From positions 1-26,425 of IMG/VR virus record IMGVR_UViG_3300044825_002253: a DNA stretch of 26,425 nt. The stretch is one strand, 5' to 3'. Source of the DNA: a virus. The translations under genes and the position numbers were made by a program. Shown piece by piece: positions 1-18,280 of this stretch (position 1 is the stretch's first letter; every line of letters begins with the position of its first letter). The notes under the pieces were generated by a model. The model worked only from the letters and a program-made list of their open reading frames with translations, was not told the origin of the DNA and made no database searches.

Positions 1-2
1 AC

Positions 3-209
3 GAATTGCACGAGGTGCGAAAGCGTGTTACCGCAATCGAAGGCTGGAAAAAGTCATTGATGTTCTGGCTGAAGTTTGCGGCTTGGTGCTTGTTCGCTGT
101 TGTTGCATTTTTTCTGTTTACTACTGCGGTTTTTGTGTTCAGTAACAAAGACATTAGGGTTCAATACCTAAACCAAAAAATTAGTAACCCGCTGCCGGGA
201 GGGGAGTGA
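3..209 (+). CDS. small membrane protein, 5'-truncated by the window edge
   Basis: The frame is already open at the first bases, so the true start probably lies upstream; a TTG at position 6 is possible but has no room for a visible ribosome-binding site. The visible part has a charged, helical N-terminal stretch (HEVRKRVTAIEGWKK), then one long hydrophobic segment of about 28 residues (roughly residues 18-46), then a short polar tail. That layout, a short amphipathic helix plus one membrane span, resembles small phage XhlA-like or holin-like membrane proteins, but the match is only architectural and I do not recognise the family. The DNA is clearly more AT-rich than the genes that follow. The stop codon overlaps the next start (TGATG). 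Confidence 0.6.
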   Translation, partial: ELHEVRKRVTAIEGWKKSLMFWLKFAAWCLFAVVAFFLFTTAVFVFSNKDIRVQYLNQKISNPLPGGE

Positions 210-394
210 TGAGAAGGCCCACTGAGCTGGAAAAGCTGGAATATGAAAACGAGCGCCTGTTGCAGGCCGTGACGCAGTGGTCTTTCACGTGCCACCAGCT
301 GCGGCTGGATGTGGACCGCCTGCGCAGTGAGGCGGAGGTGCTGCGGAACGAGGTAACCATCCTGCGCATGGCAAAGGGGGCAGCCGGTGAGTGA
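209..394 (+). CDS. small coiled-coil phage protein
   Basis: A 61-residue protein made almost entirely of one predicted helix with heptad-like spacing of Leu, Val and Ile among Glu, Arg and Lys (for example LEKLEYENERLL and LDVDRLRSEAEVL). The ATG at 209 is preferred over the in-frame GTG at 206 because GGGAGG ends six bases upstream, and the ATG overlaps the upstream stop as TGATG. No catalytic motif is visible. It is probably a small oligomerising accessory protein of the pre-packaging gene block. Function is not recognised. Confidence 0.65.
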   Translation: MRRPTELEKLEYENERLLQAVTQWSFTCHQLRLDVDRLRSEAEVLRNEVTILRMAKGAAGE

Positions 395-914
395 GCTGAC
401 AACGTGGACAACCGTGAACCTGACGGACATGGAAATGCGGATGGCCGCCATGGTGGGGGCGGAGCGCCAGCTGCAGTCAGCCGGCAGCCCTGGCACCAAG
501 CACGGCCTAAGCAACCTGGACCCCTGGACGATGCACCTGAACGGGGCAGCGGCTGAGCTGGCTGTGGCCAAGGCGCTGGCCCTGTTCTGGCCCGGCAGCG
601 TGGGCACCTTCAGGGCTGAGCCGGATATTCCATGCCGGCAACACCCGCCAGGCATCGAGGTGCGGTGGATCAGCCAAATGCGCTATGACCTGAAAATACG
701 GCATGATGACAGCCCGGAGCGCATGTACGTGCTGGTATCCGGGTTTGCCCCGCGCATGACCCTGCACGGGTGGTACTTGGGCAGTGATGCAAAACAGCCG
801 GAGTTCTGGACCGAGCTGGGCAACGGCCGGCCCGGGCTGTGGTGCGTGCCGAAGGAGCGCCTGCACGGCCCCCAGGGCCGGAAACCTTCAGCCATGGCGG
901 GGGCCGGTGTATGA
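387..914 (+). CDS. conserved phage protein, possible PD-(D/E)XK-like fold
   Basis: A 175-residue soluble protein starting at a GTG, with AAAGGGGG about six bases upstream and a short overlap with the preceding gene. The order of features resembles a phage family I recall only as uncharacterised: a helical NGAAAELAVAKAL segment near residue 52, an acidic PDIP element near 79, then an IEVRW strand (near 90) and a YDLKIR strand, and a C-terminal WCVPKERL. A Glu-rich helix followed by Asp and Glu-x-Arg on strands is suggestive of a degenerate PD-(D/E)XK nuclease fold, but the usual catalytic Lys is Arg here. It lies just before coiled-coil genes and a RusA resolvase. Function is otherwise unknown. 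Confidence 0.7.
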   Translation: MSELTTWTTVNLTDMEMRMAAMVGAERQLQSAGSPGTKHGLSNLDPWTMHLNGAAAELAVAKALALFWPGSVGTFRAEPDIPCRQHPPGIEVRWISQMRYDLKIRHDDSPERMYVLVSGFAPRMTLHGWYLGSDAKQPEFWTELGNGRPGLWCVPKERLHGPQGRKPSAMAGAGV

Positions 915-1231
915 TCGTCACGCCGGAGGATGTGCCACCCGACGGCGAGGGCCGCACCAGCGTGCGGGTGCTGGATGGCCAGGGCCGGGAATGGCACCGG
1001 CTGCAATGGGTGAACATCGCCACAGGGCAGGCCCTCCAGCTGATGACCAACCCGGAAGGTGAACTGGTGCTGCGGCACTGGATGGATGAGGACAGGAAGC
1101 GGCAGTCGGGTTACTTCAGCCGGTTCGTCCAGCTGCCCCTGCCGATCCGTTTCGAGTTTCTAGGAGGGGAACGCGATGGGGCAGAATGGAAACCCTACCC
1201 TGAGGGACCAGGTGCACCTGCTGAAAGGTGA
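911..1231 (+). CDS. hypothetical phage protein
   Basis: A 106-residue protein whose ATG overlaps the upstream stop as ATGA, which I prefer over the GTG at 839 lying deep inside the previous gene. The middle contains a mixed-charge beta-type segment (SVRVLDGQGREWHRLQWVN) and the end is Pro- and Gly-rich. Its last 56 bases overlap the next gene in another frame; since that gene has a very good ribosome-binding site, both frames appear to be used. I do not recognise the family. It belongs to the same tightly packed co-transcribed block as its neighbours. Confidence 0.6.
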   Translation: MIVTPEDVPPDGEGRTSVRVLDGQGREWHRLQWVNIATGQALQLMTNPEGELVLRHWMDEDRKRQSGYFSRFVQLPLPIRFEFLGGERDGAEWKPYPEGPGAPAER

Positions 1232-1367
1232 GCTGGCCATGGAGCGCCTTGCGGGGCTGGCCATGAAGGTTCGCATGGACCGCATCCAGACGGAATTGCA
1301 ACGCCTGAAGGATACGGTGGACCTGCTGCAGATCGAGCGGGACCGCCAGGAGGTGGCCCGCTGGTAG
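1176..1367 (+). CDS. small coiled-coil phage protein
   Basis: A 63-residue, strongly helical protein with heptad-like Leu, Met and Ile positions (for example LKDTVDLLQIERD), similar in style to the coiled-coil protein at 209-394 but not obviously the same sequence. The start is well supported: TAGGAGGGG lies just upstream of the ATG at a suitable distance. It overlaps the end of the previous gene by 56 bases. No enzyme motif is visible and the function is unknown. Confidence 0.6.
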   Translation: MGQNGNPTLRDQVHLLKGELAMERLAGLAMKVRMDRIQTELQRLKDTVDLLQIERDRQEVARW

Positions 1368-1392
1368 AATATGGCACCATGGAGGGCACACC

Positions 1393-1578
1393 ATGGGACA
1401 TGAAGACTACGAGACGATGGTCACCCTGCTGGAGGAGGTGACCCACATCCTCAGCGAGGTGCCCGAGCTGGTTTGCACCGCCAAACCCCGCACCGCCCTG
1501 GCCTGGCTGAAAAGGGCCCGCAAGCACCTGCGCACCGCCAGTGACATCATCCAGGCCGATCTGGAGGGCCGGAATTGA
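1393..1578 (+). CDS. small helical phage protein
   Basis: A 61-residue helical protein with hydrophobic residues alternating with acidic and basic ones; there are no membrane spans and no known motif. GGAGGG ends seven bases before the ATG, giving a solid start. The DNA just upstream carries a possible extended -10 element (TGGTAGAAT at 1362-1370), but there is no -35 match, so an extra promoter here is uncertain. The stop codon overlaps the TTG start of the RusA gene. Function is not recognised. Confidence 0.6.
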   Translation: MGHEDYETMVTLLEEVTHILSEVPELVCTAKPRTALAWLKRARKHLRTASDIIQADLEGRN

Positions 1579-2009
1579 CAGCAGGCCATATACCCGGTGA
1601 TAATTTCGGAAACGTCGAAAGTGCCCCAACCGGAGGCACCGGTCATCTATTTCTGCGGCTATCGCCGCCGCCCTCCGTCAACCATATCTGGAACAGGGGC
1701 AGGGGCGGGAAGGTCTACCGCAGCCGCAGCTACCAGACATGGATCACCCGCAACCTGTTCCACACCGGCCGCCAGGTGCGCCAGGTGGACGGGCCCGTGC
1801 ACGTTTCCGTCACCATCAACGGCGGTAAGGGCTGGCGCAAGGGGCGCGACATTGACAACGTGCTGAAACCGCTGATGGATTTCCTGCAGCACATCGGGGC
1901 TATCACGGACGATTGTGCTGAGGTGGTGAACAGCATTTACATACGGTTCACGCCACCAGGAAAACCGGCTGACAAATCCTACGTGGACGTGGTGGTCCAG
2001 CCCGCATGA
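1575..2009 (+). CDS. rusA: RusA-family Holliday junction resolvase
   Basis: RusA enzymes are dimeric, metal-dependent endonucleases that cut four-way DNA junctions; in phages they clear branches before or during packaging. The family signature is clear. An N-terminal PPPSVNHIW segment is followed by GRDIDNVLKPLMD with Asp92, Asp94 and Lys98, then by Asp112-Asp113. The spacing of Asp94, Lys98 and Asp113 equals that of the catalytic Asp72, Lys76 and Asp91 of E. coli RusA, so the active site looks intact. At 144 residues it is slightly longer than the usual 120 or so because of an N-terminal extension of about 25 residues. The TTG start overlaps the upstream stop and has GGAGGG nearby; no ATG or GTG is available before the conserved core. 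Confidence 0.92.
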   Translation: MTAGHIPGDNFGNVESAPTGGTGHLFLRLSPPPSVNHIWNRGRGGKVYRSRSYQTWITRNLFHTGRQVRQVDGPVHVSVTINGGKGWRKGRDIDNVLKPLMDFLQHIGAITDDCAEVVNSIYIRFTPPGKPADKSYVDVVVQPA

Positions 2010-2326
2010 ACCACCGCCAGACGGTCAGCCTGTGGGTGCTGGTGGAACGCCTGGAAAAGGTTTCCGCAGACATGGACCTGTCACCAGACCGGTGGGCCCT
2101 GTTATGCTGCCGGCTGATGCCGGAATGGTTCGGGGAACCGCAGCAGCCGGGCAAGGCCACGCAGGCGGATCCCGGCAGCGAGGAAAAGATTCTGACCATG
2201 CAGCGCAGGGCCAAGGCGGGGCAGGCCGTTTTCCACCCGCAGGATATGCGCAGGAATACCCGGGACCTCCGGCCCGATTGTGTGCCGGAACCGGTGGAAG
2301 ATGAGGAGCTGGGCCTGTGGGGCTAG
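2006..2326 (+). CDS. hypothetical phage protein
   Basis: A 106-residue protein coupled to rusA by an ATGA overlap. The N-terminal half is helical and rich in Leu and Trp (LWVLVERLEKV, WALLCCRLMPEWFG); the C-terminal half is charged and Pro-rich and looks less ordered. There are no membrane spans and no recognised motif. Its place between a resolvase and a ParB/TET pair suggests a DNA-metabolism accessory role, which is only an inference from position. Confidence 0.6.
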   Translation: MNHRQTVSLWVLVERLEKVSADMDLSPDRWALLCCRLMPEWFGEPQQPGKATQADPGSEEKILTMQRRAKAGQAVFHPQDMRRNTRDLRPDCVPEPVEDEELGLWG

Positions 2327-2337
2327 AAGGCGGGGAA

Positions 2338-2553
2338 ATGGTGGCGCACCCTAGCGGAATGGACCACCATGAATTGCAACGGCTGCACCACCTAGCATTG
2401 ACGGTGCTGGCTGATATGGCGAAAAACGCCGAAGGTGAGAACCGGTTCAAGGCCGCCGACCAGCTGGCCTGGTATACCCTGTGCCAATTGAACAAGGCCC
2501 ACGATAACGAAAGGGCCGACGTGAAAGAACAGAAAAAGGAATGGGAAAAATGA
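2338..2553 (+). CDS. small helical phage protein
   Basis: A protein of about 71 residues that is helical throughout and ends in a very Lys- and Glu-rich tail (ADVKEQKKEWEK). The ATG at 2338 has AAGGCGGGG just upstream. A GTG at 2317 in the same frame would overlap the previous gene, and a later ATG at 2359 is also possible. Its stop codon overlaps the start of the ParB-domain gene (ATGA). Function is not recognised. Confidence 0.55.
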   Translation: MVAHPSGMDHHELQRLHHLALTVLADMAKNAEGENRFKAADQLAWYTLCQLNKAHDNERADVKEQKKEWEK

Positions 2554-3194
2554 AAATACGGGACCGGGTGAAAGAGCTGCGCAGGGTACGGGCTGGAGAG
2601 CTGCTACCGAACGAGCGCAATTGGCGCAAGCACCCCAAGGCCCAGCAGGAGGCCCTCCAGGGCGTGCTGGCGGAGATCGGCTACGCCGGAGCCCTGCTGG
2701 CCTACGAGACGCCCAGCGGCCTGAAACTGATCGACGGGCACCTGCGGGCAACCACCACACCGGACACGGAGGTGCCGGTGCTGGTGCTGGATGTGGATGA
2801 CGCGGAGGCGGCCAAGCTGCTGGCCACCTTGGACCCCTTGGCAGCCATGGCGGAGGCTGACGGCAACGCATTGGACGCCCTGCTGCGGGATGTGCAAACC
2901 GGCAGCCAGGCGCTGGCGGATATGCTCACAACATTGGCTGACAACAACATCCCCTGGCTTCCACCTGAGGAGCCAAAAAGCGAGCAGGAAAAAGAGGCCG
3001 AAAAAGAGGAATACAACAATCACGACACCGAAAGGTTTCTGGAAAGCAAGGTGAAAAAGTTCGAGTTTTTCTGCACCATGGACGAATTCGAGACGGTAAA
3101 AAGTGACATTGAATATGCCCGCAAAAAATCAAAAACGGAGAATAACAGCGACGCCATTCTATGGGTGCTGAGGCGCTACCATGAAGACAATTGA
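2550..3194 (+). CDS. ParB-like (ParB/sulfiredoxin-fold) domain protein
   Basis: A 214-residue protein with an N-terminal ParB/Srx-type domain: LLPNERNWRKHP (residues 18-29), then LAEIGYAGALLAYE and the signature LIDGHLRA around residues 60-67, followed by a VPVLVLDVDDAEA strand-helix unit. In phages such domains are often fused or adjacent to DNA methylases and other DNA-modifying enzymes. Here no methylase domain follows; instead there is a charged linker (about 145-170) and a helical C-terminal module ending LRRYHED. The ATG at 2550 fits AAAAAGGA about ten bases upstream and overlaps the previous stop; an ATG at 2541 is in frame but too close to it. The last 14 bases overlap the dioxygenase gene, so the two are translationally coupled. 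DNA coding for the C-terminal part is AT-richer than its surroundings. Confidence 0.82.
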   Translation: MKIRDRVKELRRVRAGELLPNERNWRKHPKAQQEALQGVLAEIGYAGALLAYETPSGLKLIDGHLRATTTPDTEVPVLVLDVDDAEAAKLLATLDPLAAMAEADGNALDALLRDVQTGSQALADMLTTLADNNIPWLPPEEPKSEQEKEAEKEEYNNHDTERFLESKVKKFEFFCTMDEFETVKSDIEYARKKSKTENNSDAILWVLRRYHEDN

Positions 3195-4050
3195 CCTTGG
3201 GCCACCTATACCGTGTGACCACCTGCTGGGTAACGTGCCGGCTGCTGCTGAATTTGAAAGAATAATCAACCCGCCGGCCAGGCTGGTTTCACAGGGCCGC
3301 TGTGTTGGCGTGTACGCGTCACTGCCGGCGTGGCTGGCTGAAAAGGGCCACCAAATAACCCGCCAGGTGAAACCGAAAAAGAACACCCGCACACAGGGCC
3401 TGCCCACCAAGTCCACCATTCTGGGCAGCCTTCCTCGAGTGCCACTGCGGCATAACTACTGCCGGCTGAGCGCCGACACCAATGAACACCCGGAAATCTG
3501 GGAGCTGGCGAAAGAGTTCGCCGGCCATATTTGCACCCTTTACGAAAAATGGCTGCCTGAGGAATACGAGAGGCACACCCGGCAAACCAACAGCGAAATC
3601 GTGCCGGACTGGGTGGTGCCGGGTACACCGTTCACCACCATCAATTTCAACGTGAACCACGCCATTAAGCACCACCGAGACGCGGCCAACCAGAAGGGCG
3701 TTTGGTCGAACGTGATTATCCTGCGCAAAAACAGCAAGGGCGGCCTGCTGGTGCTGCCGGAGTACAGGGCGGCATTGACCCAGGTTGATGGGGCCATAAT
3801 CATATTTGACGGGCAGAAAGTGATGCACGGCGTCACCCCCATTGCCACGCAGGCCGGCGGCTACCGTTGCTCTGTCGTGCTGTACGCCCTGGACCAGTTC
3901 CGAAACTGCTACCCGTATGCTGAGCAATTGGAGAACATCAAGCGGCACAGGACAAAACTGGAGCAGGAATTCCGCAGCCAAGCGGCCCAGGAATATGGCA
4001 GGAGTGGAAAAAACGCAAACATGAAGCTGAACGCAAAGAATAAAAAGTGA
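3181..4050 (+). CDS. TET/JBP-family 2-oxoglutarate/Fe(II) dioxygenase, predicted DNA base oxidase
   Basis: TET/JBP enzymes use Fe(II), oxygen and 2-oxoglutarate to hydroxylate the methyl group of 5-methylcytosine or thymine in DNA; phage members active on 5-methylcytosine are known. The 289-residue protein has the expected double-stranded beta-helix order: FTTINFNVNHAIKHHRD with the iron ligands His165 and Asp167, GGLLVLPEYRAAL (188-199), IIIFDGQKVMHGVTPI with the distal iron ligand His216, and YRCSVVLYAL with Arg229 as likely 2-oxoglutarate anchor. All four key residues are present, so it should be active. The N-terminal part (1-145) is typical of the family; the basic C-terminal tail is lower complexity. 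It overlaps the ParB gene and precedes terS, suggesting modification shortly before packaging. The substrate is not proven: no cytosine methyltransferase lies in this window. Confidence 0.87.
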   Translation: MKTIDLGPPIPCDHLLGNVPAAAEFERIINPPARLVSQGRCVGVYASLPAWLAEKGHQITRQVKPKKNTRTQGLPTKSTILGSLPRVPLRHNYCRLSADTNEHPEIWELAKEFAGHICTLYEKWLPEEYERHTRQTNSEIVPDWVVPGTPFTTINFNVNHAIKHHRDAANQKGVWSNVIILRKNSKGGLLVLPEYRAALTQVDGAIIIFDGQKVMHGVTPIATQAGGYRCSVVLYALDQFRNCYPYAEQLENIKRHRTKLEQEFRSQAAQEYGRSGKNANMKLNAKNKK

Positions 4051-4056
4051 TATAAT
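4027..4056 (+). promoter_or_regulatory. extended -10 promoter before terS
   Basis: A perfect TATAAT (4051-4056) is preceded by TG one base away (TGATATAAT), the extended -10 form, and sits exactly at the stop codon of the dioxygenase gene. Possible -35 elements 17-18 bases upstream are weak (three of six matches), as is common for extended -10 promoters. A transcript would start near 4063 and have a leader of about 23 bases before the ATG at 4086. This would let packaging and head genes be expressed apart from the upstream modification genes. Confidence 0.55.
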
Positions 4057-4085
4057 CCTGCCACGATACTGGACGCATAAAAACC

Positions 4086-4517
4086 ATGGCACGTAAAAGA
4101 GGCTATCTCAGCGAGAAAGCGGTGGCGGACGCCCTGAAGGCGGCCCTGGGCAACGTCGCGCAGGCTGCCCGGAACCTAGGGGTGGAACGCTCCGGCCTGT
4201 TTGACCGCATTGCCAAAAGCGAAACCCTGAAAACTATCCTGCACGATGCCCGGGAGGGCATGGTGGACAACGCCGAAAGCGCCCTGCACCGGGCAGTCAC
4301 GCAGGGGGAGGGCTGGGCGGTGTGCTTTACCCTGAAAACGCAGGGCAAGGGTAGGGGCTACGTTGAGCGCCAGGAAATCCAGCAGGAGGGCCGGGTGCAG
4401 GTGACGCTGAACCCTGGAGAGCTAACTGATGAACAGCTGGCAGCCATCGCAGCTGGGGCCACAGGAGGCGGCGGCCGAGCTGCTGAGCCGCAGGCGAGCC
4501 CGCCGGGACCTGCTTGA
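4086..4517 (+). CDS. terS: terminase small subunit
   Basis: The small terminase recognises the packaging site on the phage concatemer and regulates the large subunit. The 143-residue protein has an N-terminal helix-turn-helix region (about residues 12-47, ALGNVAQAARNLGVERSGLF) and a central helical block ending in FTLKTQGKGRGYVERQE, a pattern typical of the phage TerS group with an FLKTQ-KRGY motif. The C-terminus is Gly-, Ala- and Pro-rich. It follows a promoter and overlaps the large-subunit gene by 89 bases, the usual order. No clear Shine-Dalgarno is visible before the ATG. Confidence 0.88.
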   Translation: MARKRGYLSEKAVADALKAALGNVAQAARNLGVERSGLFDRIAKSETLKTILHDAREGMVDNAESALHRAVTQGEGWAVCFTLKTQGKGRGYVERQEIQQEGRVQVTLNPGELTDEQLAAIAAGATGGGGRAAEPQASPPGPA

Positions 4518-5922
4518 TTTCTGCCGGTACACCATGCCCGATTACAAGCCGGGCTGGCACCACCAGGCCATAGCGGCAGCCCTCCACCGGATGGTGGACG
4601 GGAACCTGCGCAGGCTGATCCTCAGCATGCCCCCCAGGCATGGGAAAAGTGAACTGATCAGCCGCCGGCTGCCCGCCTACCTGCTGGGCATTGACCCATC
4701 CACCACCATCATTGGCACCAGCTATAGCGCGGACCTGGCCAGCAGGCTGAACCGTGACATCCAGCGCATTATCGACAGCACGCAATACAAGGCGCTATTC
4801 CCGGCCACCCGGCTGAACGACAGCAACAGCCGCACGGTATCCGGCAGCTGGCTGCGCAATAGCGATGTTTTCGAGGTGGTGGGGCAGCCGGGCACCTACC
4901 GCAGCGCGGGCGTGGGTGGCGGCATCACGGGCATGGGGGCCAAGTGGCTGATTATTGACGACCCCCTGAAAAACCGGGAGGAGGCCGACAGTCCTACCGT
5001 GCGGGAAAACGTCTGGGACTGGTACACCAGTACCCTGTACACCAGGCAGGCCCCAGGTGCCCGTATCCTGCTGGTGATGACCCGCTGGCACAGTGACGAT
5101 CTGGCCGGCAGGCTGGTGAAGGTGGCGCAGGATGAGCCAGGGGCGGACCAGTGGGAGGTGATCAACTTCCCGGCCCTGGCGGAGGATGCCCCAAGCGAGC
5201 ACGACCACCGGCAGCCAGGGGAGCCCCTATGGCCGGAAATGTTTTCAGCGGATGACCTGAACCGTATCCGGGCCAGCATTGGCGTGTATGACTGGTCCGC
5301 CCTGTACCAGCAGCAACCCCGTGCCGGCGGTGGCGTGGAATGGCCCGCAGGCTACACGGAGGGGCGGGACCTGCTGTTCGATGAATGGCCAGTGTGCCCC
5401 CTGCGGACCATGGCGGTGGACCCCAGCAAGGGCCGGGACGGCCGGCATGGCGACTATAGCGCCATCATCAAGCTGGGCAGGGGAACCGACGGCACCCTGT
5501 ACTGCCAGGCTGATCTGGAACGGCGCTCCAGTGAGCAGATCATCGAGGATGCCCTGGAACAGGCGGCCGATTTCAAGCCGGACGCCTTCGCCGTCGAGGT
5601 GAACCAGTTCCAGGAGCTGCTGGCCAACCTGATGGCGGCCAAGGCCCGGGCCATGGGCATGATGCTGCCCCTGGTGCAGATCAACAACACCGTCAGCAAG
5701 CTGACCCGCATCCGCCGCCTGGGCCCCTACCTGGAAGGCCGGCAAATACGTTTCAAGGCCAACAGCCCGGGCACCCGGCTGCTGCTGGAGCAGCTGCGGG
5801 ACTTTCCGGTGGCCAGCCATGACGACGGCCCTGACGGGCTGGAAATGGCCCTCCGGTGTATGATTGACCTGCACAACGGGCGCGTGGCGAAACGGCCCCC
5901 CGTCAGGAGGCTACTGGTATGA
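4429..5922 (+). CDS. terL: terminase large subunit (packaging ATPase and nuclease)
   Basis: The large terminase pumps DNA into the prohead and cuts the concatemer. The 497-residue protein shows both domains. The ATPase half has a Walker A-like MPPRHGKSE (residues 67-75) and Walker B LIIDDP with Asp177-Asp178, followed by the coupling-type segment LLVMTRWHSDDLAG. The nuclease half has AVDPSKGRDGRHGDYSA with Asp331, a VEVNQFQELL segment with Glu390, and HDDGPDGLEMA with Asp469, matching the three acidic positions of the RNase H-like fold. All key residues are present and the length is normal. GGAGAG lies about eight bases before the ATG, which is inside terS. The stop overlaps the portal start. 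Confidence 0.96.
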   Translation: MNSWQPSQLGPQEAAAELLSRRRARRDLLDFCRYTMPDYKPGWHHQAIAAALHRMVDGNLRRLILSMPPRHGKSELISRRLPAYLLGIDPSTTIIGTSYSADLASRLNRDIQRIIDSTQYKALFPATRLNDSNSRTVSGSWLRNSDVFEVVGQPGTYRSAGVGGGITGMGAKWLIIDDPLKNREEADSPTVRENVWDWYTSTLYTRQAPGARILLVMTRWHSDDLAGRLVKVAQDEPGADQWEVINFPALAEDAPSEHDHRQPGEPLWPEMFSADDLNRIRASIGVYDWSALYQQQPRAGGGVEWPAGYTEGRDLLFDEWPVCPLRTMAVDPSKGRDGRHGDYSAIIKLGRGTDGTLYCQADLERRSSEQIIEDALEQAADFKPDAFAVEVNQFQELLANLMAAKARAMGMMLPLVQINNTVSKLTRIRRLGPYLEGRQIRFKANSPGTRLLLEQLRDFPVASHDDGPDGLEMALRCMIDLHNGRVAKRPPVRRLLV

Positions 5923-7964
5923 CACTGTGGGAACGGCTATTCGGAAGCAGGGTACAACGCCAGCGGGTGGAACTCGAGGAAAGCCTGCGGGTGAAGCAGC
6001 TCCAGCGCAAGCAAAAGCTGCTGGAAGGCTACCTGGACCAGGACTATTGGCTTCAGGGCTACGCCGATCTGCTGAACCGCTACCGGGACGGCGGGCAGTT
6101 CGCCTACCCGGTCAGCCAGCCCACCGACCGGCGCTACGGCGGAAACTACCCGTTCTGGTACAGCGAACAGCAGCTGTCCATCCTGCGGGCCGCCAGCCGG
6201 CTGTGCACCACGATGAACCCCAACGCCTACGGCCTCTTGAACGGGCTGGCCAGCTACGTTATCGGCAACGGTTTCAGCTACCGGGTGGCCGCCAAAAAGG
6301 GCATCGAGGTTTCCGCCGACCTGCTGGAGCAGGCCCAGCAGGTGGTGGATGATTTCGCCTACGAAAACGCATGGCCGGAAATGGAGCGGGAGCTGTTCTG
6401 GCGCTGGCGGGAGGATGGTGACGCCTTTTTGCGCCTATTCCCGCAGAAATCCGGCCGGCTAATGATCCGCACGGTGGAGCCCGAGCAGGTGTTCCAGCCG
6501 CCCGATAGCCAGCTGGCGGAGTGGAGCTACGGCATCAAGACGGAGGTGGATGACGTTTTCCAGATCGAGGCATATTTCGTCAGCTATGCCGCCCCAGGCG
6601 GCAAGGGTGGAGACGTGCCGGTGATGGGTGAGGAGGTGGAAGCGGAAAACATGATCCACCTGAAAGCCAACGTGAAAAGGGCCATCAAACGGGGCCTGCC
6701 GGATTTCAGCTACGACACCCTGGACGCCTTCAACATTGCCAGCAAGCTGCGGCAGAACCTGGGCGAGGGCAGCGCGGTGCAGGCGGCCATTGCCGGCATC
6801 CGCCAGTACGATGCGGCCAGCAGCCAGCAGGTGGATACCTTCCTGCAAGGGCAGGTGGATTACACGCAGTACGACGCCCTCACTGGAAAGCAGCAGGATT
6901 TCCAGCAGCTACGTTCCGGCAGTTTCCTCGATATTCCCAAGGGCATGAACTACATCACACCACCCGCAGCCGCCAGCGCAGCCGCCCACCTGGAAGTTTT
7001 CCAGAGCCTGCTGCGGAGCGCCGGCAACCGGCACAACGCCCCCGAGTGGCTGGTCAGCAGCAATGCCGCCAACAACAACTACGCCAGCAGCCTGACGGCT
7101 GAATCGCCATTCCTGCGCAACTGCCTGGCCCTCCAGGAAGCTGTGAAGCGGCCGTTTTTGCGCGTCATGCGGGCGGCCCTGCAGAATGCGGCCATGGCGG
7201 GGCAGCTGCCCCCCAACGTGCTGGATGCGGTGGAAATCCAGGTGGTGCCCCCCAGCGTGGAAACCCGCGACCGGGTGCAGGAGGCGCAGACCAACCAGGT
7301 ATACAGCACGCTGCGCGTCAAGAGCCCGCAGACCATCGCGCAGGAAATCGGGCTGGACTGGGATGAGGAAATGGCCAACTGGGACGAGGTTACCCAGGAC
7401 GCCGGCCTACCCGGGCCCCTGCCCACCGACCTGCCCACCCCCGCCCTGCCGGAGGCCACCGGCAGCGTACAGGCCATGGAAGGCACCTACACGGAGGCGG
7501 AGGGCGGGCGCTATTCGCATATTGATTTCAAGCCGCCGGAGGGCGCCAGAAAGGCGGCCCAGCGGGCGCTGGATGTGCGGGCGGAGAAACCCGAAAGCCA
7601 GCGGGGCATGACGCCGGTGGGCATCGCCAGGGCCCGTGACCTGGCGAACGGCCGGGAACTATCACCGCAGACGGTGCGCCGCATGAAAGCCTATTTCGAC
7701 CGGCACGAGGTGGACAAAAAGGGCGAAACGTGGGACCAGCAGGGCAAGGGCTGGCAGGCGTGGCAGGGCTGGGGCGGTGACGCCGGCTACGCCTGGGCCC
7801 GTAAGGTGGTGGGCCAGATGGAGGCCGCCGACCGGAAGGCCACCGAGAGCAAGGTGCCCGATAAAATTCGCACCCTGAAAGATGAGGGCTACCCGCAGGA
7901 TCAGGCCGTCGCCATCGCGCTGGACATGGCCCGGCGTGGTGAAATCCCAGAGCGCAAGAAATGA
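5919..7964 (+). CDS. portal protein with C-terminal accessory modules
   Basis: The portal forms the dodecameric ring through which DNA enters and leaves the head. Residues 1-480 fit a phage portal: WYSEQQLSILRAASRL, YGLLNGLASYVIGNGF, an aromatic-rich region with LFWRWREDGDAF, and LTAESPFLRNCLALQEAVKRPF near 390-410. Beyond residue 500 two extra modules follow. One (about 530-640) contains TPVGIARARDLANGRELSP, YFDRHEVD and WGGDAGYAWA, a small module I know from other phage structural proteins. The second (about 645-681) has the EGYPQDQAVAIALDMAR motif, also widespread in phage proteins. At 681 residues it is longer than most portals, consistent with a fusion. AGGAGG lies eight bases before the ATG. 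Confidence 0.88.
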   Translation: MTLWERLFGSRVQRQRVELEESLRVKQLQRKQKLLEGYLDQDYWLQGYADLLNRYRDGGQFAYPVSQPTDRRYGGNYPFWYSEQQLSILRAASRLCTTMNPNAYGLLNGLASYVIGNGFSYRVAAKKGIEVSADLLEQAQQVVDDFAYENAWPEMERELFWRWREDGDAFLRLFPQKSGRLMIRTVEPEQVFQPPDSQLAEWSYGIKTEVDDVFQIEAYFVSYAAPGGKGGDVPVMGEEVEAENMIHLKANVKRAIKRGLPDFSYDTLDAFNIASKLRQNLGEGSAVQAAIAGIRQYDAASSQQVDTFLQGQVDYTQYDALTGKQQDFQQLRSGSFLDIPKGMNYITPPAAASAAAHLEVFQSLLRSAGNRHNAPEWLVSSNAANNNYASSLTAESPFLRNCLALQEAVKRPFLRVMRAALQNAAMAGQLPPNVLDAVEIQVVPPSVETRDRVQEAQTNQVYSTLRVKSPQTIAQEIGLDWDEEMANWDEVTQDAGLPGPLPTDLPTPALPEATGSVQAMEGTYTEAEGGRYSHIDFKPPEGARKAAQRALDVRAEKPESQRGMTPVGIARARDLANGRELSPQTVRRMKAYFDRHEVDKKGETWDQQGKGWQAWQGWGGDAGYAWARKVVGQMEAADRKATESKVPDKIRTLKDEGYPQDQAVAIALDMARRGEIPERKK

Positions 7965-12913: not shown

Positions 12914-14254
12914 ATGAACCCCCTGAAGATCCGAAGCCTGTTCGAGAGCCGCAGCCAGCAGTCCAATGGGCGCTGGCGGTTCCTGACCGAAATGAAGCAC
13001 GGGCTGGGCCTGTGCGACAAGGACGGCAACGACTACCGCGATTACGCCGGCAACCGCATCAGCAAGGACGCAAAAGTCCGCGCTGAGCAGTTCAGCCTGG
13101 CGGAGCTGGCGGAGGGAATTATCGGGCCCAGCTGGCGCGGCCTGTTCAACCCGGACAGCCGGGCCCTGAACAAGTTCAGCCAGGCGAAAGCTATCCTCGA
13201 GGCCACCAACCCGGGCGACACCCGCGCCCTGCTGGAGAGCACCGGCATCGGCATCGACCCGACTGCTTTCGCCAACATCAACACGTTCACCAGCGTGGTG
13301 GGCGGGTTGGTTGAGGTGAAAATCCTCGAGGCGTTCCAGAACCCCGCCTTGATTGCCGACCGGGTGTGCCCGGCGGAGCCCACCAAGCTGAACGGCCAGA
13401 AGATCATCGGTGTGAACCACATTGGTGACCGGGCTGCCGTGCGCAAGCCTGGCATGCCGCACGAGCGGGCGCAGTTCAACGAGCGCTGGGTGGAAACCCC
13501 CGAGACGGTCGAGAACGCCCTGGCGGTGGATGTCTTTAAGGAAACGGTCTTTTTTGACCTGACCGGGCAGATCCTCCAGATGGCTTCCAGCGTGGGCGAG
13601 GAATTGGCCTACCGCAAGGAAATCCGGGTGATCGACACCATCATTGGTGTGACCAACTCGTTCCGGTACAACGGCACAGCGTACAACACGTACGTGACCA
13701 GCCGGACCCAGGGCTACCTGAACGACCAGAGCAACCCGCTGCTGGATTGGACCTCCATCCAGAGCGCCATGCTGCTGTTTGCCCGCATGCAGGACCCTGC
13801 CACCGGCAAGCGCATCCTGACCAAGCCTGACACCATCATTGTGAACCCCGCAAAGGTGGCGACGGCTAACTTGATCCTGTCGGCCACCACCACCGAGCGC
13901 CGTTCGGGTGGCGGAGCATCCACACCGCAGACGACCAGCAACCCGCTGAACGTCAGCGTGAGTCCGGGCAGCCCGTACAGCGGCCTGGAGGTGCTGAGCA
14001 GCCCGATTATCGAGCAGCGCTGCACCGATGCCACCGGCCTGAACCTGAGCCAGGCCAACGCCGACGACTACTGGTGGGCGCTGGAGCGGGGCAAGAGTTT
14101 CCGCTACATGCAAAACTACCCGTTGGCCGTGAACCAGGCAGCCCCCAACCAGTACGAAATGCTGGACAAGGGCATCGTGGCCAGCTACTTTGCCAACGAG
14201 CGCGGGGTGCCCTCCATCTGGTCCCCCTGGCACGTGGTGCGGAACAAGAACTGA
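12914..14254 (+). CDS. major capsid protein
   Basis: A 446-residue protein directly after scaffold and decoration genes. Features that fit an HK97-fold capsid protein are a charged N-terminal helical region (about 1-100), the central segment TFTSVVGGLVEVKILEAF, a set of beta strands around 150-190, a long helical segment near 210-240 (VGEELAYRKEIRVIDTIIG), and the late KPDTIIVNPAKVATANLIL unit, which resembles the P-domain part of many capsids. The C-terminus ends in SIWSPWHVVRNKN. The prohead protease probably trims the N-terminus. AAGGAC-type Shine-Dalgarno precedes the ATG. The assignment rests on order, size and these patterns together. Confidence 0.9.
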   Translation: MNPLKIRSLFESRSQQSNGRWRFLTEMKHGLGLCDKDGNDYRDYAGNRISKDAKVRAEQFSLAELAEGIIGPSWRGLFNPDSRALNKFSQAKAILEATNPGDTRALLESTGIGIDPTAFANINTFTSVVGGLVEVKILEAFQNPALIADRVCPAEPTKLNGQKIIGVNHIGDRAAVRKPGMPHERAQFNERWVETPETVENALAVDVFKETVFFDLTGQILQMASSVGEELAYRKEIRVIDTIIGVTNSFRYNGTAYNTYVTSRTQGYLNDQSNPLLDWTSIQSAMLLFARMQDPATGKRILTKPDTIIVNPAKVATANLILSATTTERRSGGGASTPQTTSNPLNVSVSPGSPYSGLEVLSSPIIEQRCTDATGLNLSQANADDYWWALERGKSFRYMQNYPLAVNQAAPNQYEMLDKGIVASYFANERGVPSIWSPWHVVRNKN

Positions 14255-14469
14255 TGAGCAAGGCGAAGGCCAAAAGTTCAGCGCAGCCGGTTCCGGTCCA
14301 GACGGGGCCGGCTGTGCGCCTTTACAGGGTGCGGCACCAGGCATGCCCGGAGGCGCTGGTCGAGGCATACAGCCCCGACGAGGCGGCCCGTATTTACCGG
14401 CAGGAAAACCGGCTGCACTGGCAGCGGGAAGTGTACACGGAGGTGGTGGAACATGGCGGCAGCCGATGA
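14254..14469 (+). CDS. small phage protein after the capsid gene
   Basis: A 71-residue basic protein beginning at the ATG that overlaps the capsid stop (TGATG); an earlier start at 14074 lies inside the capsid gene and is rejected. After a Lys- and Ala-rich N-terminus it has a short alpha/beta core (AVRLYRVRHQACPEALVEAYSPDEAARIY cut across about residues 20-48). Short proteins with a similar YRV and D-E-A-A pattern follow the capsid gene in other phages, but I know of no function. Confidence 0.6.
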   Translation: MSKAKAKSSAQPVPVQTGPAVRLYRVRHQACPEALVEAYSPDEAARIYRQENRLHWQREVYTEVVEHGGSR

Positions 14470-14668
14470 CATCGCCACAGCCATCGACCAGGTGGCTGCC
14501 CGCATCAAGGACCTTACAACGGACCCGAAGCCGGACTATTCCGTCAACGGCCAGAGCATCAGCTGGGGCAGCTATTTGGACATGCTGACCCGGCAGCTGG
14601 CCGCCTTACAAGGGGCCCAGCAGAACCTGGCGGGGCCATTTCAACGCATCACGAGGATGAGGCCATGA
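14453..14668 (+). CDS. small helical head-tail region protein
   Basis: A 71-residue protein with an N-terminal helix (DDIATAIDQVAARIKDL), a short middle (DYSVNGQSISWGSYLDML) and a C-terminal helix (LAALQGAQQNLAG). This layout is common for small proteins in the head-tail region of phages. GGAGG lies about nine bases before the ATG, which is within the end of the preceding gene. It is probably a minor structural or assembly protein; its role is not known. Confidence 0.62.
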   Translation: MAAADDIATAIDQVAARIKDLTTDPKPDYSVNGQSISWGSYLDMLTRQLAALQGAQQNLAGPFQRITRMRP

Positions 14669-14994
14669 GCGTGAAATTTGCGGCAGTGAGCGCCAGCAGC
14701 AGCGGTGACAACACCATCGTGGCGGCATCCACCGGCCAGAAGATCGTGCTGCTCAGCTACGTGGTCATAGCGGCCGGTGACGTTTCCATCCGCTGGAAAT
14801 CAGGCGCGAGCACCAACCTGTCGGGGGCCATGGCACTGGCCACCAATGGCGGGGCCGCCCCTAGTGCCGGGCCACTGGCACCCGCCGGCGTGGTGGGCCT
14901 GCTGGAAACCGCATCCGGCGAGGCGCTGGTGCTGAACCTTTCGGCCGCCGTCGCGGTGGGCGGGCATATTGCCTACCGGCTGGTGACGGTATGA
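14665..14994 (+). CDS. small beta-sandwich virion protein
   Basis: A 109-residue protein of alternating Val, Ile, Ala and Ser with conserved-looking segments ASSSGDNTIVAA, IVLLSYVVIAAGDVSIRWKSG, LSGAMALATNGG and ALVLNLSAAVAVGGHIAYRLV. I recall this pattern from many phages, where it looks like a compact jelly-roll or beta-sandwich exposed on the virion, perhaps a head fibre or decoration protein. Function is not established. The ATG overlaps the upstream stop (ATGA) with a GAGGATGAGG stretch before it. Confidence 0.65.
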   Translation: MSVKFAAVSASSSGDNTIVAASTGQKIVLLSYVVIAAGDVSIRWKSGASTNLSGAMALATNGGAAPSAGPLAPAGVVGLLETASGEALVLNLSAAVAVGGHIAYRLVTV

Positions 14995-15446
14995 ACCTTT
15001 CGGTGGGCGTGGCGCGCGCTATTGCCGGGTCTACTGCTGGCGGAATGAGCCAGCAGCAGGCCAAGGGCCTGGCGCGTGCTGCCGTCTACCTGCAGGCGCA
15101 ACACCAGCAACGCCTGGGAAAGCCGGCACCAGCCACCAAGCGGAACGGGCGGGTGCGCTACCTGCAGGGGCCGCCTGTGGCTGGGCGGTACCCGTTCAAG
15201 CGCACCGGATTCCTGCAGGCCAACGTGACTGTGGAAAGCCTGAATATCCAGCGCATCATGCGCGAGGCTAGGGTACGGGTGGGCCTGCGCCGAAACGCCT
15301 TCTATGGGGCTGTTTTGGAGGCGCGTTTCGGTGCCTTGGGCCTGAAGGATACCCTGCGCGACCTTATGCCGCAGCTTCAGGCATTGGCTGGCCAATCCCT
15401 GCAATTCCAGCTGGTGGACGTATTCCTGCCGGAGGCCCAGCCATGA
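14991..15446 (+). CDS. probable head-tail completion or neck protein (gp10-like)
   Basis: A 151-residue basic protein at the position of the HK97 gp10-type neck proteins. The helical N-terminus is followed by a GRYPFKRTGFLQANVTVES segment, which resembles the short T-G-x-L strand-helix units of that group, and by a YGAVLEARFGALGLKDTLRDLM region whose Y-x-x-x-L-E-x-R-F motif is typical of it. The protein would help join head and tail. It is coupled to both neighbours by ATGA overlaps. Confidence 0.62.
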   Translation: MNLSVGVARAIAGSTAGGMSQQQAKGLARAAVYLQAQHQQRLGKPAPATKRNGRVRYLQGPPVAGRYPFKRTGFLQANVTVESLNIQRIMREARVRVGLRRNAFYGAVLEARFGALGLKDTLRDLMPQLQALAGQSLQFQLVDVFLPEAQP

Positions 15447-15877
15447 CGCTCAGCTGGAGCCCGGAAGGCGACCACACCATATTCGACCGGCTGGAAAGCC
15501 TGGTCTGCACGCAGCCCGATGGCGTGACCTTCACCATCGCCAATTCCCTGCGCCTGCCCGGCAGCCTGCAGAACGCGCCTGCCGGCATCGCCACGATGTA
15601 CGGCACGCAGTTCCGGTTCAACCTGTGGGTGCTGGAATGCGCCCAACCGCCCAAGCTGCACGCCAAACTGGTGGACGGCAATGGGCGCGCCTACCGGGTG
15701 GACAATGTGACGCTTTCGGTAAGCCGGCAGATGTACGAGGTGGACGCCACCGGCGACGCGGCGGAAAGCCTGGTACAGGACATCAACCCCTTGCTGTGGA
15801 CGGCAGGGGCCGAAAACACCATTCTGGCGGCCATTGACCCGGTCAGCGGCGTTACCACCACCCTGGATCACGCATGA
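15443..15877 (+). CDS. head-tail connector region protein of unknown family
   Basis: A 144-residue soluble alpha/beta protein starting at an ATGA overlap. Recognisable pieces are HTIFDRLESLVCTQPDGVTFT, RFNLWVLECAQPPKLHAKLV and VDNVTLSVSRQMYEVDATGDAA. I cannot place it in a named family. Its location between a gp10-like neck protein and a tail-terminator-like protein suggests a head-tail joining role. No signal peptide or membrane span is present. Confidence 0.58.
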   Translation: MTLSWSPEGDHTIFDRLESLVCTQPDGVTFTIANSLRLPGSLQNAPAGIATMYGTQFRFNLWVLECAQPPKLHAKLVDGNGRAYRVDNVTLSVSRQMYEVDATGDAAESLVQDINPLLWTAGAENTILAAIDPVSGVTTTLDHA

Positions 15878-16308
15878 GCAAATTCTGGGACACCCTGTAC
15901 AGCGTGAAGGCCCGCCTGGGGCAGGTGCCCGGCGTGCAGGTGGCCGTCCGCAAGCGGGCCATTTTGCTGGAAGGCGACCCGCTGCCCATGGTCATTGTCA
16001 GCCCGGGCACCGACAGCGTGGACACCGAAGCCTTCAACCGGGTAATCCTGTACCGCTATCAGGTGAATGTGACGCTAGTACAGGCCGGGAACCGGGTATT
16101 TGAACAGGATGTGAAGGATTGGCTGCAATTACGCCAGACGGTGCGCGATATATCCTACCGCGACAGCCTGCCGGGCGACCCGGTGCAGCTGTGCGGGTTT
16201 GACCTGGTTACCAATCCAGCGGTGGAAATTGTGTCGGGTGCCAGTTCCAATTATGATGTAACAGGTCTACAGCTGACCTACCTAAGCCAAGAGGAGCGCC
16301 TGGCATGA
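15874..16308 (+). CDS. probable tail terminator/completion protein
   Basis: A 144-residue alpha/beta protein with an N-terminal helix (FWDTLYSVKARLG), strands around PMVIVSPG, a central VILYRYQVNVTLVQAGNRVFEQD unit and a C-terminal strand pair ending TGLQLTYLSQE. Size, secondary-structure order and location just before the tail-tube genes fit the tail terminator (gpU-like) class, which caps the tail tube and binds the head connector. The sequence itself shows no strong family signature, so the call rests mostly on order. Confidence 0.55.
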   Translation: MSKFWDTLYSVKARLGQVPGVQVAVRKRAILLEGDPLPMVIVSPGTDSVDTEAFNRVILYRYQVNVTLVQAGNRVFEQDVKDWLQLRQTVRDISYRDSLPGDPVQLCGFDLVTNPAVEIVSGASSNYDVTGLQLTYLSQEERLA

Positions 16309-16784
16309 GCCTGAGCCTGTCCGGCATTTCCGGCGAAATCACCTGGACGCAAACCAAGGCCAATACGGGATTCCTTGTCACCCGGCAGGGCCCGGACAAG
16401 GTGGACCTGAGCCTTTCCCCCAATACCACCACCTATAACGAGGTGCTGGCGGTGCAGGGCACCCTGGCAGCCAGTGCCAATACCACCATCAACCTGAACA
16501 GCTTCACCAACCTGCTGGGCGTGGCGGCCACCTGCACCAAGGGCATTGGCTTCATCATCAAGGCCACAGCCGCTGACCTGAAAATCGAGCCTGGCGCGTC
16601 GAACCCCCTTGGATGGTGGTGGGGTGGCACAACGCCCTCCATCACCATCAAGGCGGGCGGCTTCTTTTTGATCGGTGACGGTGGCACGGCCACCATCAGC
16701 GGGAGCGCCTGCAACCTGAAAATCACCAACCTTTCCGGCAGCGTGACTGCCACCTATACCGTCGCCTTTTTGGGAGGAGCATGA
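16305..16784 (+). CDS. beta-rich virion protein, role uncertain
   Basis: A 159-residue, Thr-, Gly- and Asn-rich beta protein. The middle has YNEVLAVQGTLAAS, TTINLNSFTNLLGVAATCTKG and PLGWWWGGTTPSITIKAG; the end has ACNLKITNLSGSVTATYTVAF. I recall this combination (a tail of N-L-L-G and N-L-x-I-x-N-x-S-G) from small virion proteins of other siphophages. It may be a tail-tube or tail-surface decoration. GAGGAG precedes the ATG, which overlaps the upstream stop. Confidence 0.6.
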   Translation: MSLSLSGISGEITWTQTKANTGFLVTRQGPDKVDLSLSPNTTTYNEVLAVQGTLAASANTTINLNSFTNLLGVAATCTKGIGFIIKATAADLKIEPGASNPLGWWWGGTTPSITIKAGGFFLIGDGGTATISGSACNLKITNLSGSVTATYTVAFLGGA

Positions 16785-16785
16785 C

Positions 16786-17148
16786 ATGGCTTTCTACGCG
16801 GGAAAATCGGCCAGCCTGACCATTGGCGCATCGGCCCAGCCCATGACCGACTGGACCCTGGACACCAAGGAGGAGGCGGTGGATACCACCAACTTCACCA
16901 GCGGTGGCTTCCAAGAATCCGTTGGCGGCATCAACAGCGCGGATATCACCTGCACCGGGCCCTATGACGGCACCAGCGGCGTGACCATGGGCACGGCTGC
17001 ATCGTTTGTGCTGGCCACCGGCGGCGGCGGCCCCAGCTTCACGGTTACCGCGCGCGTGACCAGCGTGAACGTTTCCACCAACGTGCGGGGTGTGGCAACC
17101 GTCAGCATCACAGCGCAGTCCACCGGCAGCTTTACCGTCGCCCCCTGA
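16786..17148 (+). CDS. tail tube-like protein A
   Basis: A 120-residue beta protein beginning AFYAGKSASLTIGA, then DWTLDTKEEAVDTTNFTSGG, TCTGPYDGTSG and the closing unit VTSVNVSTNVRGVATVSITA. The D-x-T-N-F-T-S-G and GPYDG pattern fits the small tail-tube or tube-like proteins of siphophages, which stack as hexamers around the tape measure. GGGAGGAG lies just upstream of the ATG. The next gene is a divergent copy: both share W-x-L near residue 23, a G-P-Y in the middle, and the same ending with V-N, R-G-V-A-x-V and T-G-x-F. Confidence 0.72.
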   Translation: MAFYAGKSASLTIGASAQPMTDWTLDTKEEAVDTTNFTSGGFQESVGGINSADITCTGPYDGTSGVTMGTAASFVLATGGGGPSFTVTARVTSVNVSTNVRGVATVSITAQSTGSFTVAP

Positions 17149-17160
17149 TCGGAGGCGGCC

Positions 17161-17571
17161 ATGCCGCAGGTCTTCAAGGGCAAGTCTGGCGCTGTTGCAT
17201 TTGGCCCGGCTGGGCAGGAAGTCACGCAGCCCTTCGATGCGTGGGTCCTGGTCATCCGGGCCGACCCCATTGATTGCAGCGATTATGACCAGCCAACGCG
17301 CAATTACCTGCACGACCTGCCGGCTGCGCAGGTGCAGTTCAGCGGCCCATATTTTGACCAGAAGCTGAGCCTGAAGGCCACCGATGTGGCTGAGGTTACC
17401 CTGTACCTGGACGAGGCCAATGATGTCAGCTTCCGGCTGACAACGCTCATCACCGATGTTAATCTGCGGCTGGAGACGCGGGGCGTGGCCCGGGTGGAGT
17501 TTGCCGGCGTAGTGACCGGCAACTTCTTGGAAGACGTGGCCAACGCGTTCACGCAGGAGGTGGTGCTGTGA
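17161..17571 (+). CDS. tail tube-like protein B (paralogue of A)
   Basis: A 136-residue beta protein aligned end to end with its upstream neighbour: AWVLVIRADPID against DWTLDTKEEAVD, FSGPYFDQ against CTGPYDGT, and ITDVNLRLETRGVARVEF against VTSVNVSTNVRGVATVSI, followed by V-V-T-G-N-F against Q-S-T-G-S-F. It is therefore a diverged duplicate that may form part of the tail tube or its tip or collar. GGAGG lies six bases before the ATG, and its stop overlaps the chaperone start as GTGA. Confidence 0.7.
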   Translation: MPQVFKGKSGAVAFGPAGQEVTQPFDAWVLVIRADPIDCSDYDQPTRNYLHDLPAAQVQFSGPYFDQKLSLKATDVAEVTLYLDEANDVSFRLTTLITDVNLRLETRGVARVEFAGVVTGNFLEDVANAFTQEVVL

Positions 17572-17975
17572 GCATGGGCAACGTGACAGCCGAGCCGATT
17601 CTGGCTGTGGTGGATGGCAAGGAGTACAAGGTCGGGCTGATAACGCAGGCGGCCAAGGGCCAGCTGGAGCGCATCTGCGAGAAGCGGGCCCGCGAGGCGG
17701 TGCTGGCTGGCAAGGACCAGCTGACGGACGAGGAATTCAAGCTGGCCTATTCCAGCTTTTTGGACAAGGTGGCCAGCGGCGACTTCGCATACGGTGGCCC
17801 GACGTTCAGGCGGTGGATCGACAGCGGGCTGGGTACCCTGGCCATGGTGCAGGTGCTGTTCAGCGTGGGGGCAGATGAGGCGGAACGGTTGGTGACGCAG
17901 GGGCCGGCTGAGGTGAGCGCGGCCCTGCGCAGCGTGTTCGCGGCGTCTTTCCCCCAAGCCCCAGCGGCGAGCTGA
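17568..17975 (+). CDS. tail assembly chaperone G-like protein
   Basis: In siphophages the G protein and its frameshifted G-T form act as chaperones that wrap the tape measure during tail assembly and are absent from the virion. This 135-residue helical protein lies right between the tail-tube genes and the tape measure, the standard place. It starts with a beta-type VVDGKEYKVGLIT segment and continues with helices (LERICEKRAREAVL, EFKLAYSSFLDKVA, FRRWIDSGLGTLAMVQVLF). The GTG at 17568 overlaps the upstream stop; an ATG at 17574 is an alternative. Its last codons contain a slippery TTTCCCC and the stop lies within a predicted hairpin. Confidence 0.8.
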   Translation: MSMGNVTAEPILAVVDGKEYKVGLITQAAKGQLERICEKRAREAVLAGKDQLTDEEFKLAYSSFLDKVASGDFAYGGPTFRRWIDSGLGTLAMVQVLFSVGADEAERLVTQGPAEVSAALRSVFAASFPQAPAAS

Positions 17976-17991
17976 CCGCCAGCCCTGGGGC
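17948..17991 (+). promoter_or_regulatory. programmed -1 frameshift signal of the tail chaperone
   Basis: The heptamer T-TTC-CCC (17948-17954) is in the correct phase of the G frame for X-XXY-YYZ slippage: both tRNAs can re-pair after moving back one base. Three bases later a hairpin can form with outer arms GCCCCAG (17958-17964) and CTGGGGC (17985-17991) and inner arms GGCG (17966-17969) and CGCC (17977-17980). The zero-frame stop TGA (17973-17975) lies in its loop. The -1 frame is open from the heptamer to the stop at 18280. The spacer is shorter than the usual five to nine bases, unless the first pairs are open when the ribosome pauses. Confidence 0.8.
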
Positions 17992-18013
17992 GCGCAGGGA
18001 ACAGCCCGGCGAT

Positions 18014-18280
18014 ATGCCGGATGCGGTCACGACAATGGCGGTGCTGGTGGGTGAGCCATTCCTGTTGCGGCCCGATGAAATCGGCAGGCTGACTGACTGG
18101 CAGATACAGCAGCTGTACTGCGCGAAGCGGAAAAAGGACGGCACGGTTATCCAGCAGGCGGTGGAACCCAAGCGGCAGACGATGGAGCAGGCCAAGCTGA
18201 AGTATTTCGCCATGGGGCAGGGGTTGGGCATCAGCCGGGAAAAACTGGAAGCGGCCTGGAGGGCCAAGCATGGCGGCTAG
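18014..18280 (+). CDS. tail assembly chaperone T-like part, translated as a -1 frameshift extension
   Basis: The open frame lies in the -1 phase of the G gene and is uninterrupted back to the slippery site, so I read it as the T part of a G-T fusion. After slippage translation would continue at 17954, adding 108 residues to the first 129 of G (237 in total). The segment after the Pro- and Gly-rich join carries FLLRPDEIGRLTDWQIQQLYC and KYFAMGQGLGISREKLEAAW, a helical core of the kind seen in T-like chaperone extensions. An ATG at 18014 exists but has no good ribosome-binding site (CAGCCCGGCGAT precedes it), which argues against independent translation. It overlaps the tape measure start by 11 bases. 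Confidence 0.75.
   Translation: MPDAVTTMAVLVGEPFLLRPDEIGRLTDWQIQQLYCAKRKKDGTVIQQAVEPKRQTMEQAKLKYFAMGQGLGISREKLEAAWRAKHGG

Follow-up and report, generated by a model that had tools for sequence, protein, structure and literature searches.

A reduced ParB–TET/JBP gene pair ahead of the terminase genes of an environmental phage, predicted to oxidize bases in phage DNA

The window analyzed here, a complete IMG/VR record of 26,425 bases (IMGVR_UViG_3300044825_002253, G000 below), comes from an environmental-sample phage and has a G+C content of 62%. It contains a gene for a ParB-like protein whose 3' end overlaps the start of a gene for a TET/JBP-type dioxygenase, and this pair is followed directly by the genes for the two terminase subunits and the portal protein (Table 1). 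An earlier reading of the bare letters, referred to here as the original prediction, had described this arrangement, and the two reading frames, of 217 and 289 residues, their 14-base overlap, and their position ahead of the terminase genes are all present as described.

Over 7,325 bases (window 1-7325, corresponding to oriented positions 13477-20801 of G001), the window matches a second record (G001, 20,801 bases) with 100% identity; G001 extends upstream of it, the remainders of the two records being complementary. Judged by sequence, the two likely represent one phage of ~40 kb that is not closed, with the gap falling in a tail gene. Pfam scans assign the larger genes of both records to ordinary replication, lysis-region, and structural families, and several early genes of G001 match no Pfam family. 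A gene for a papain-family (C1) cysteine protease lies past the tail genes (G001 oriented 2985-3917; L013:4740-5672, minus strand). A terminase search for a clue to the host gave best matches of at most 45%, to unrelated phages.

Table 1. Positions in the window of the ParB–TET pair, its key residues, and the packaging genes downstream
Feature	Position	Strand	Evidence
ParB-like protein, 217 aa; predicted N-terminal ParB/CTPase-type domain, ~aa 10-105	2541..3194	+	PHROG matches, AlphaFold2 (AF2) model
ParB C-terminal helical module, aa 156-211	3006..3173	+	Profile E = 2e-9; helices pLDDT ~75-92
Overlap of 14 bases between the end of the ParB gene and the start of the TET gene	3181..3194	+	ATG within parB, TGA 11 bases on
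TET/JBP 2OG-Fe(II) DNA-base dioxygenase (predicted), 289 aa	3181..4050	+	Pfam Tet_JBP, AF2 fold
Fe(II)-binding H165-x-D167	3673..3681	+	H in 75/76, D in 76/76 homologs
N170, three residues past the iron Asp	3688..3690	+	N in 73/76, D in 3/76 homologs
GGLLVLPEY motif, aa 187-195	3739..3765	+	G188 in 76/76, P193 in 75/76, Y195 in 74/76
Distal Fe(II) ligand H216 in HGVTP	3826..3828	+	75/76 homologs
2-oxoglutarate-binding R229	3865..3867	+	76/76 homologs
Terminase small subunit (TerS; HTH)	4086..4517	+	phrog_4044, E = 8e-6; Pfam HTH_8
Terminase large subunit (TerL)	4429..5922	+	Pfam Terminase_6N/6C; phrog_38, E = 2e-109; longest ORF, the true start may be later
Portal protein	5919..7964	+	Pfam Phage_portal_2; phrog_21

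By profile and by fold model, the product of the downstream gene is a TET/JBP enzyme, for which base oxidation itself is predicted. The Pfam Tet_JBP family (PF12851) matches it with E = 3.3e-14 and 52.9 bits, against a curated cut-off of 34.9. The motif set picked out in the original prediction (H165, D167, GGLLVLPEY, H216, and R229) is where it was said to be and proves near-invariant in homologs: across alignments of 61 to 76 sequences, the catalytic set, G187/G188, P193, and Y195 are invariant or almost so. N170 aligns with the Asn of HRDLHN in TET2. An AF2 model built from 61 sequences (mean pLDDT 84.5) is closest to human TET2 (4nm6; Z 19.2, rmsd 3.5 over 248 residues), with NgTET1 (Z 18.3), CcTet (18.1), and CMD1 (17.7) close behind, so that the structural comparison proposed at the outset indeed finds TET/JBP enzymes nearest. 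TET2 is also the best solved relative by sequence (family profile, E = 7e-4). An AlkB/FTO assignment was rejected, since structures of the four TET members score Z 17.4-19.2 and the next family, ALKBH3/FTO, only 13.6.

The top PHROG match of the enzyme, phrog_6059, is labeled DpdA/queuine transglycosylase, as are many GenBank relatives (gp2 of Acadian, PRodriguez, LilMcDreamy, and others). We discarded a DpdA or queuine tRNA-ribosyltransferase identity because Tet_JBP is the sole Pfam match; in the relatives with this label that we examined, the TET residue set is likewise present and nothing but Tet_JBP matches. Public labels on several TET-bearing phage genes therefore need correction.

The upstream protein matches phage ParB families (phrog_620, E = 5e-9; phrog_723, E = 6e-7; phrog_498, E = 3e-10), in agreement with the ParB-like domain first recognized from its LIDGHLRA motif. 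The phrog_723 match spans almost the entire protein, and the TET-linked ParBs of actinophages strongly match the same family. The window ParB itself gives no Pfam ParB_N match, whereas relatives at the same position do match PF02195. In an AF2 model of modest confidence (mean pLDDT 66.7), the N-terminal domain resembles the ParB CTPase fold, with a best Z of 8.4 over 81 residues (6t1f_B) and several ParB/Noc chains at around Z 8. This modest model suggests that the domain has the ParB-CTPase fold, and the sequence matches also indicate homology.

The C-terminal helical module is common to the window ParB and the TET-linked ParBs of other phages, as detected with a profile from which the window sequence was left out; the N-terminal part of that same profile gives no match to the window ParB. 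The ParBs concerned are those of the low-G+C relatives, whose C-terminal module resembles that of the window protein, whereas the N-terminal domains have no detectable similarity. The module profile finds nothing in the ParBs located beside a methyltransferase (phage BS-TP3) or a TAGT-family gene (JNU_P11), even though their N-terminal domains are much closer to that of the window protein. It matches the ParB of one Arthrobacter phage, Ottawa (E = 8e-4), yields sub-significant matches near the C terminus of other actinophage ParBs, and detects no module in the ParBs of HTVC112P and P-HS2, though both accompany a TET. The module thus tracks a subset of TET-linked ParBs, and its non-detection in the latter two means that it is not a universal adaptor. 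Structure comparison of the modeled module returned only weak helical matches. It may contact the TET enzyme.

The pairing of the two genes is conserved across dozens of phages, beyond what chance would produce. A single scan of viral contigs by profile yielded 80 loci, and ParB is immediately upstream of TET in 76 of the 81 loci that have a gene before TET. The 14-base overlap is exact in 56 of these 76 pairs, and in up to 10 others, where the called start is a TTG, beginning instead at an in-frame ATG six bases further in would also give 14 bases. The G+C content of the measured loci spans 30% to 68%. Among the 75 loci where two or more genes lie downstream, 72 have a TerL family gene within five genes (representative calls were confirmed by Pfam), and in most of the clade no gene separates TET from the terminase genes. 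Overlapping translation probably yields ParB and TET together. The original prediction had regarded a ParB without a methylase domain as unusual, a view that does not survive, since TET-linked loci normally have such a ParB; ParBs also neighbor other base-modifying enzymes ahead of the terminase. Operons with ParB and TET ahead of the terminase were reportedly predicted by Iyer and colleagues in 2009 and 2013. A set of 84,980 bacterial and archaeal genomes, one per species, contained no relative when searched with a close-relative profile. In three loci (L027:840-1688, L039, and L060), a gene of 280-290 codons with an SGGKTSSYIA motif lies immediately upstream of ParB or one gene further; its product looks PAPS-reductase-like by eye and has no Pfam match.

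A tblastn search found 102 phage records, chiefly Bclasvirinae mycobacteriophages and phages of Microbacterium, Arthrobacter, and Gordonia. The loci of Rhodococcus phage Tonitrus and Gordonia phage CaiB comprise ParB, TET, ADDT, and kinase genes, and that of Mycobacterium phage PRodriguez comprises ParB, TET, TAGT, deacetylase, kinase, and TerL. Like the window, the Tonitrus, CaiB, and Bclasvirinae loci present ParB and then TET/JBP ahead of the terminase, with the same catalytic motifs and ~30% TET identity over 60-90% of the enzyme. In contrast to the window phage, where none of these genes was found, the actinophage loci carry a PF18751 kinase and often ADDT, or else TAGT and a deacetylase. 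Mycobacterium phage Adawi was considered as a cultured minimal form and rejected, because its gp3 (L106:1795-2391), annotated as a small terminase, is a PF18751 kinase (Ploopntkinase3, E = 1e-70), presumably acting on 5-hydroxymethyluracil (5hmU) in DNA. The TAGT loci of Nonlabens phage P12024L, Arthrobacter phage Prairie, and PRodriguez share with the window a TET/JBP gene beside another DNA-modification gene and differ in having a glycosyltransferase; in P12024L, the residue matching N170 is Asp, and ParB does not immediately precede TET.

Environmental IMG/VR loci (most of L023-L094) share the gene order, the 14-base overlap, and 33-39% TET identity with the window, and mostly have no additional modification gene in the locus. 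They differ in their low G+C content (~30-32% in the two measured) and in their ParB N-terminal domain. Another group of ParB–TET loci (L004-L008, L022, L011, and L107, with the cultured Prochlorococcus phage P-HS2 and phage HTVC112P among them) bears an FkbM-family methyltransferase gene. In L004-L008, L022, HTVC112P, and P-HS2, ParB and TET are adjacent or one gene apart, as in the window, whereas the FkbM gene has no counterpart in the window phage. Seven relatives whose TET belongs to the same subfamily have it inside the locus, as does the Pelagibacter phage HTVC112P, whose TET is of a different subtype, and it always adjoins TET; its product might O-methylate the hydroxymethyl base. By identity, only L002 and L003 have a TET nearer to that of the window than L004-L008 do. 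The tree places the window with FkbM-bearing and minimal loci (support 80) and outside the actinophage clade, on a long branch of unsure position. L002 also has a 322-aa minus-strand ORF that matches no Pfam family.

Two further records (L108:3001-6465 and L109:2501-5618) have ParB with another modification enzyme in the pre-terminase slot: that of BS-TP3 holds ParB and a ParB-methyltransferase, and that of JNU_P11 holds ParB and a TAGT-family glycosyltransferase, with no TET beside them. The pre-terminase position may therefore be an exchangeable slot for DNA modification. ParB–TET upstream of the terminase has been published for CaiB, where it was read as nucleotide modification (PMC9302106), and for Tonitrus, where it was read as thymidine hypermodification (PMC11955845). 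The window locus appears to be a reduced version of this published actinophage locus, one that is common in environmental, uncultured phages; in a literature search outside most subscription journals, no publication was found for the FkbM form or for the two-gene form.

Six-frame searches of the window and G001, a genome that is not closed, covered five named families and found none of them: C5-methyltransferase (PF00145), 5hmU-type DNA kinase (PF18751), ADDT/aGPT-PPlase2 (PF18724), TAGT glycosyltransferase (PF20691), and FkbM methyltransferase (PF05050). The reported lack of a cytosine methyltransferase in the 26 kb thus holds and extends to the overlapping contig, and a C5-methyltransferase encoded in cis was set aside as a source of 5-methylcytosine (5mC). 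The same enzyme was found in 0/12 complete TET-bearing phages examined and in no more than 5 of the group's 40 viral records, in some cases elsewhere in a longer contig. Ploopntkinase3 (PF18751), by comparison, is present in 8/9 actinophages examined, which have the same TET subfamily. The PF18751 kinase and ADDT are thymine-pathway genes. Together, the kinase- and ADDT-linked relatives and the missing methyltransferases favor thymine over 5mC, and by this analogy we consider, with moderate confidence, that the substrate is thymine, oxidized post-replicatively to 5hmU. The original prediction had left the substrate open, and this no longer fully applies, as the choice narrows toward thymine and away from 5-hydroxymethylcytosine (5hmC). 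Because the window's own clade has no kinase or ADDT, however, the case for thymine draws on relatives that are more distant (~30% identity).

The active site does not add to this argument. TET2 has a His, which we take to be the base contact H1904, where the window enzyme has L237, but a substrate call from residues was abandoned because N170 and L237 are common to methyltransferase-linked and unlinked members. As read, the active site leaves thymine versus 5mC undecided. Burke and colleagues reportedly found in 2021 that phage TETs act on 5mC, and thymidine hypermodification is said to have been worked out by Lee and colleagues in 2018 and 2021.

We favor, at a probability of roughly 55%, a minimal ParB–TET unit for ParB-directed, post-replicative thymine hydroxylation, in which bare 5hmU is packaged and hinders host nucleases. 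The TET/JBP enzyme would act on phage DNA by hydroxylating a pyrimidine methyl group, most likely that of thymine, and the ParB-like protein would bind DNA and bring the enzyme there, perhaps through a contact made by its C-terminal helical module, which would result in sequence or regional specificity. The oxidized base would stay undecorated in this phage, be packaged, and most likely hinder host nucleases. Guidance of the enzyme by ParB is held with lower confidence, and the mark may serve anti-restriction or packaging.

It is rather improbable, in our estimate, that the enzyme instead oxidizes 5mC, supplied by the host or by a missed phage C5-methyltransferase, to 5hmC or beyond, whether as a shield for phage DNA or as an eraser of host marks. 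Its closest solved structures are 5mC oxidases: TET2, NgTET1, and CcTet share its fold (Z 18-19) and Fe/2OG residues, although these enzymes have no ParB partner. Methyltransferase genes do occur near the pair, directly 3' of TET in L089 (L089:8827-9849) and two genes ahead of ParB in L092 (L092:2331-3635), and elsewhere in longer contigs of other related records, and action on 5mC is possible for the L089 and L092 versions. These two are separate tips of the tree, however, such that the methyltransferase-linked loci are scattered, and no C5-methyltransferase accompanies the pair in the window, G001, 35/40 viral records, or the 12 complete phages; the kinase and ADDT partners in actinophages likewise indicate thymine. 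A similarly low probability attaches to the idea that the oxidized base is an intermediate, finished into a hypermodified base by a decorating enzyme of an unrecognized family that the host provides or that is encoded in the gap between the two records. Cultured relatives do add kinase, ADDT, TAGT, or FkbM in the same slot, and the early genes of G001 that lack a Pfam family could harbor such an enzyme. The absence of PF18751, PF18724, PF20691, and PF05050 from both records in six frames, and the gene-free interval between TET and terminase in most of the clade, argue for the undecorated base.

That ParB acts on its own, as a regulator or in a partition-like role, and neighbors TET merely as a fellow late gene seems clearly unlikely. 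It would account for BS-TP3 and JNU_P11, where a pre-terminase ParB has no adjoining TET, but these TET-free cases also have a modification-type enzyme as neighbor, and ParB precedes TET in 76/81 loci, mostly with the same overlap over widely differing G+C content. More doubtful still is a version of the preferred ParB-directed hydroxylation in which ParB would write site-specific bare 5hmU on concatemeric DNA and terminase would read it, oxidation thereby helping to select the DNA to be packaged. If so, FkbM-bearing relatives would use O-methylated 5hmU as their version of the mark, and the pre-terminase slot would generally pair ParB with a writer enzyme whose chemistry can be exchanged.

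Phage TETs are usually treated as step one toward bulky bases. In the widespread lineage described here, the locus is cut down to the oxidase and its ParB-like neighbor, with their overlap conserved, and thus the oxidized base or its placement should itself matter. The pair offers a two-protein system for asking whether a ParB-fold protein directs a DNA-base-modifying enzyme, and the cultured relatives (P-HS2, HTVC112P, and the actinophages) put base analysis within reach.

One close relative bears on the need for the enzyme. The L003 contig is 97% identical to the window, from which it differs by 12 synonymous and 2 non-synonymous changes in ParB and by 24 synonymous changes, 5 non-synonymous changes, and 1 stop in TET; the mostly synonymous differences are as expected for genes under selection. 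The stop, a TAG at TET codon 171 (L003:5811-5813), replaces a Gln codon of CAA/CAG type just past the iron-binding motif, and no further stop differences are seen in ParB, TerS, TerL, or portal. Either the function was lost naturally or the sequence is in error, and the presence of the stop means that TET function may be dispensable. In L091 (L091:1106-1933), the TET frame is split into two ORFs, reflecting a broken gene or a sequence error.
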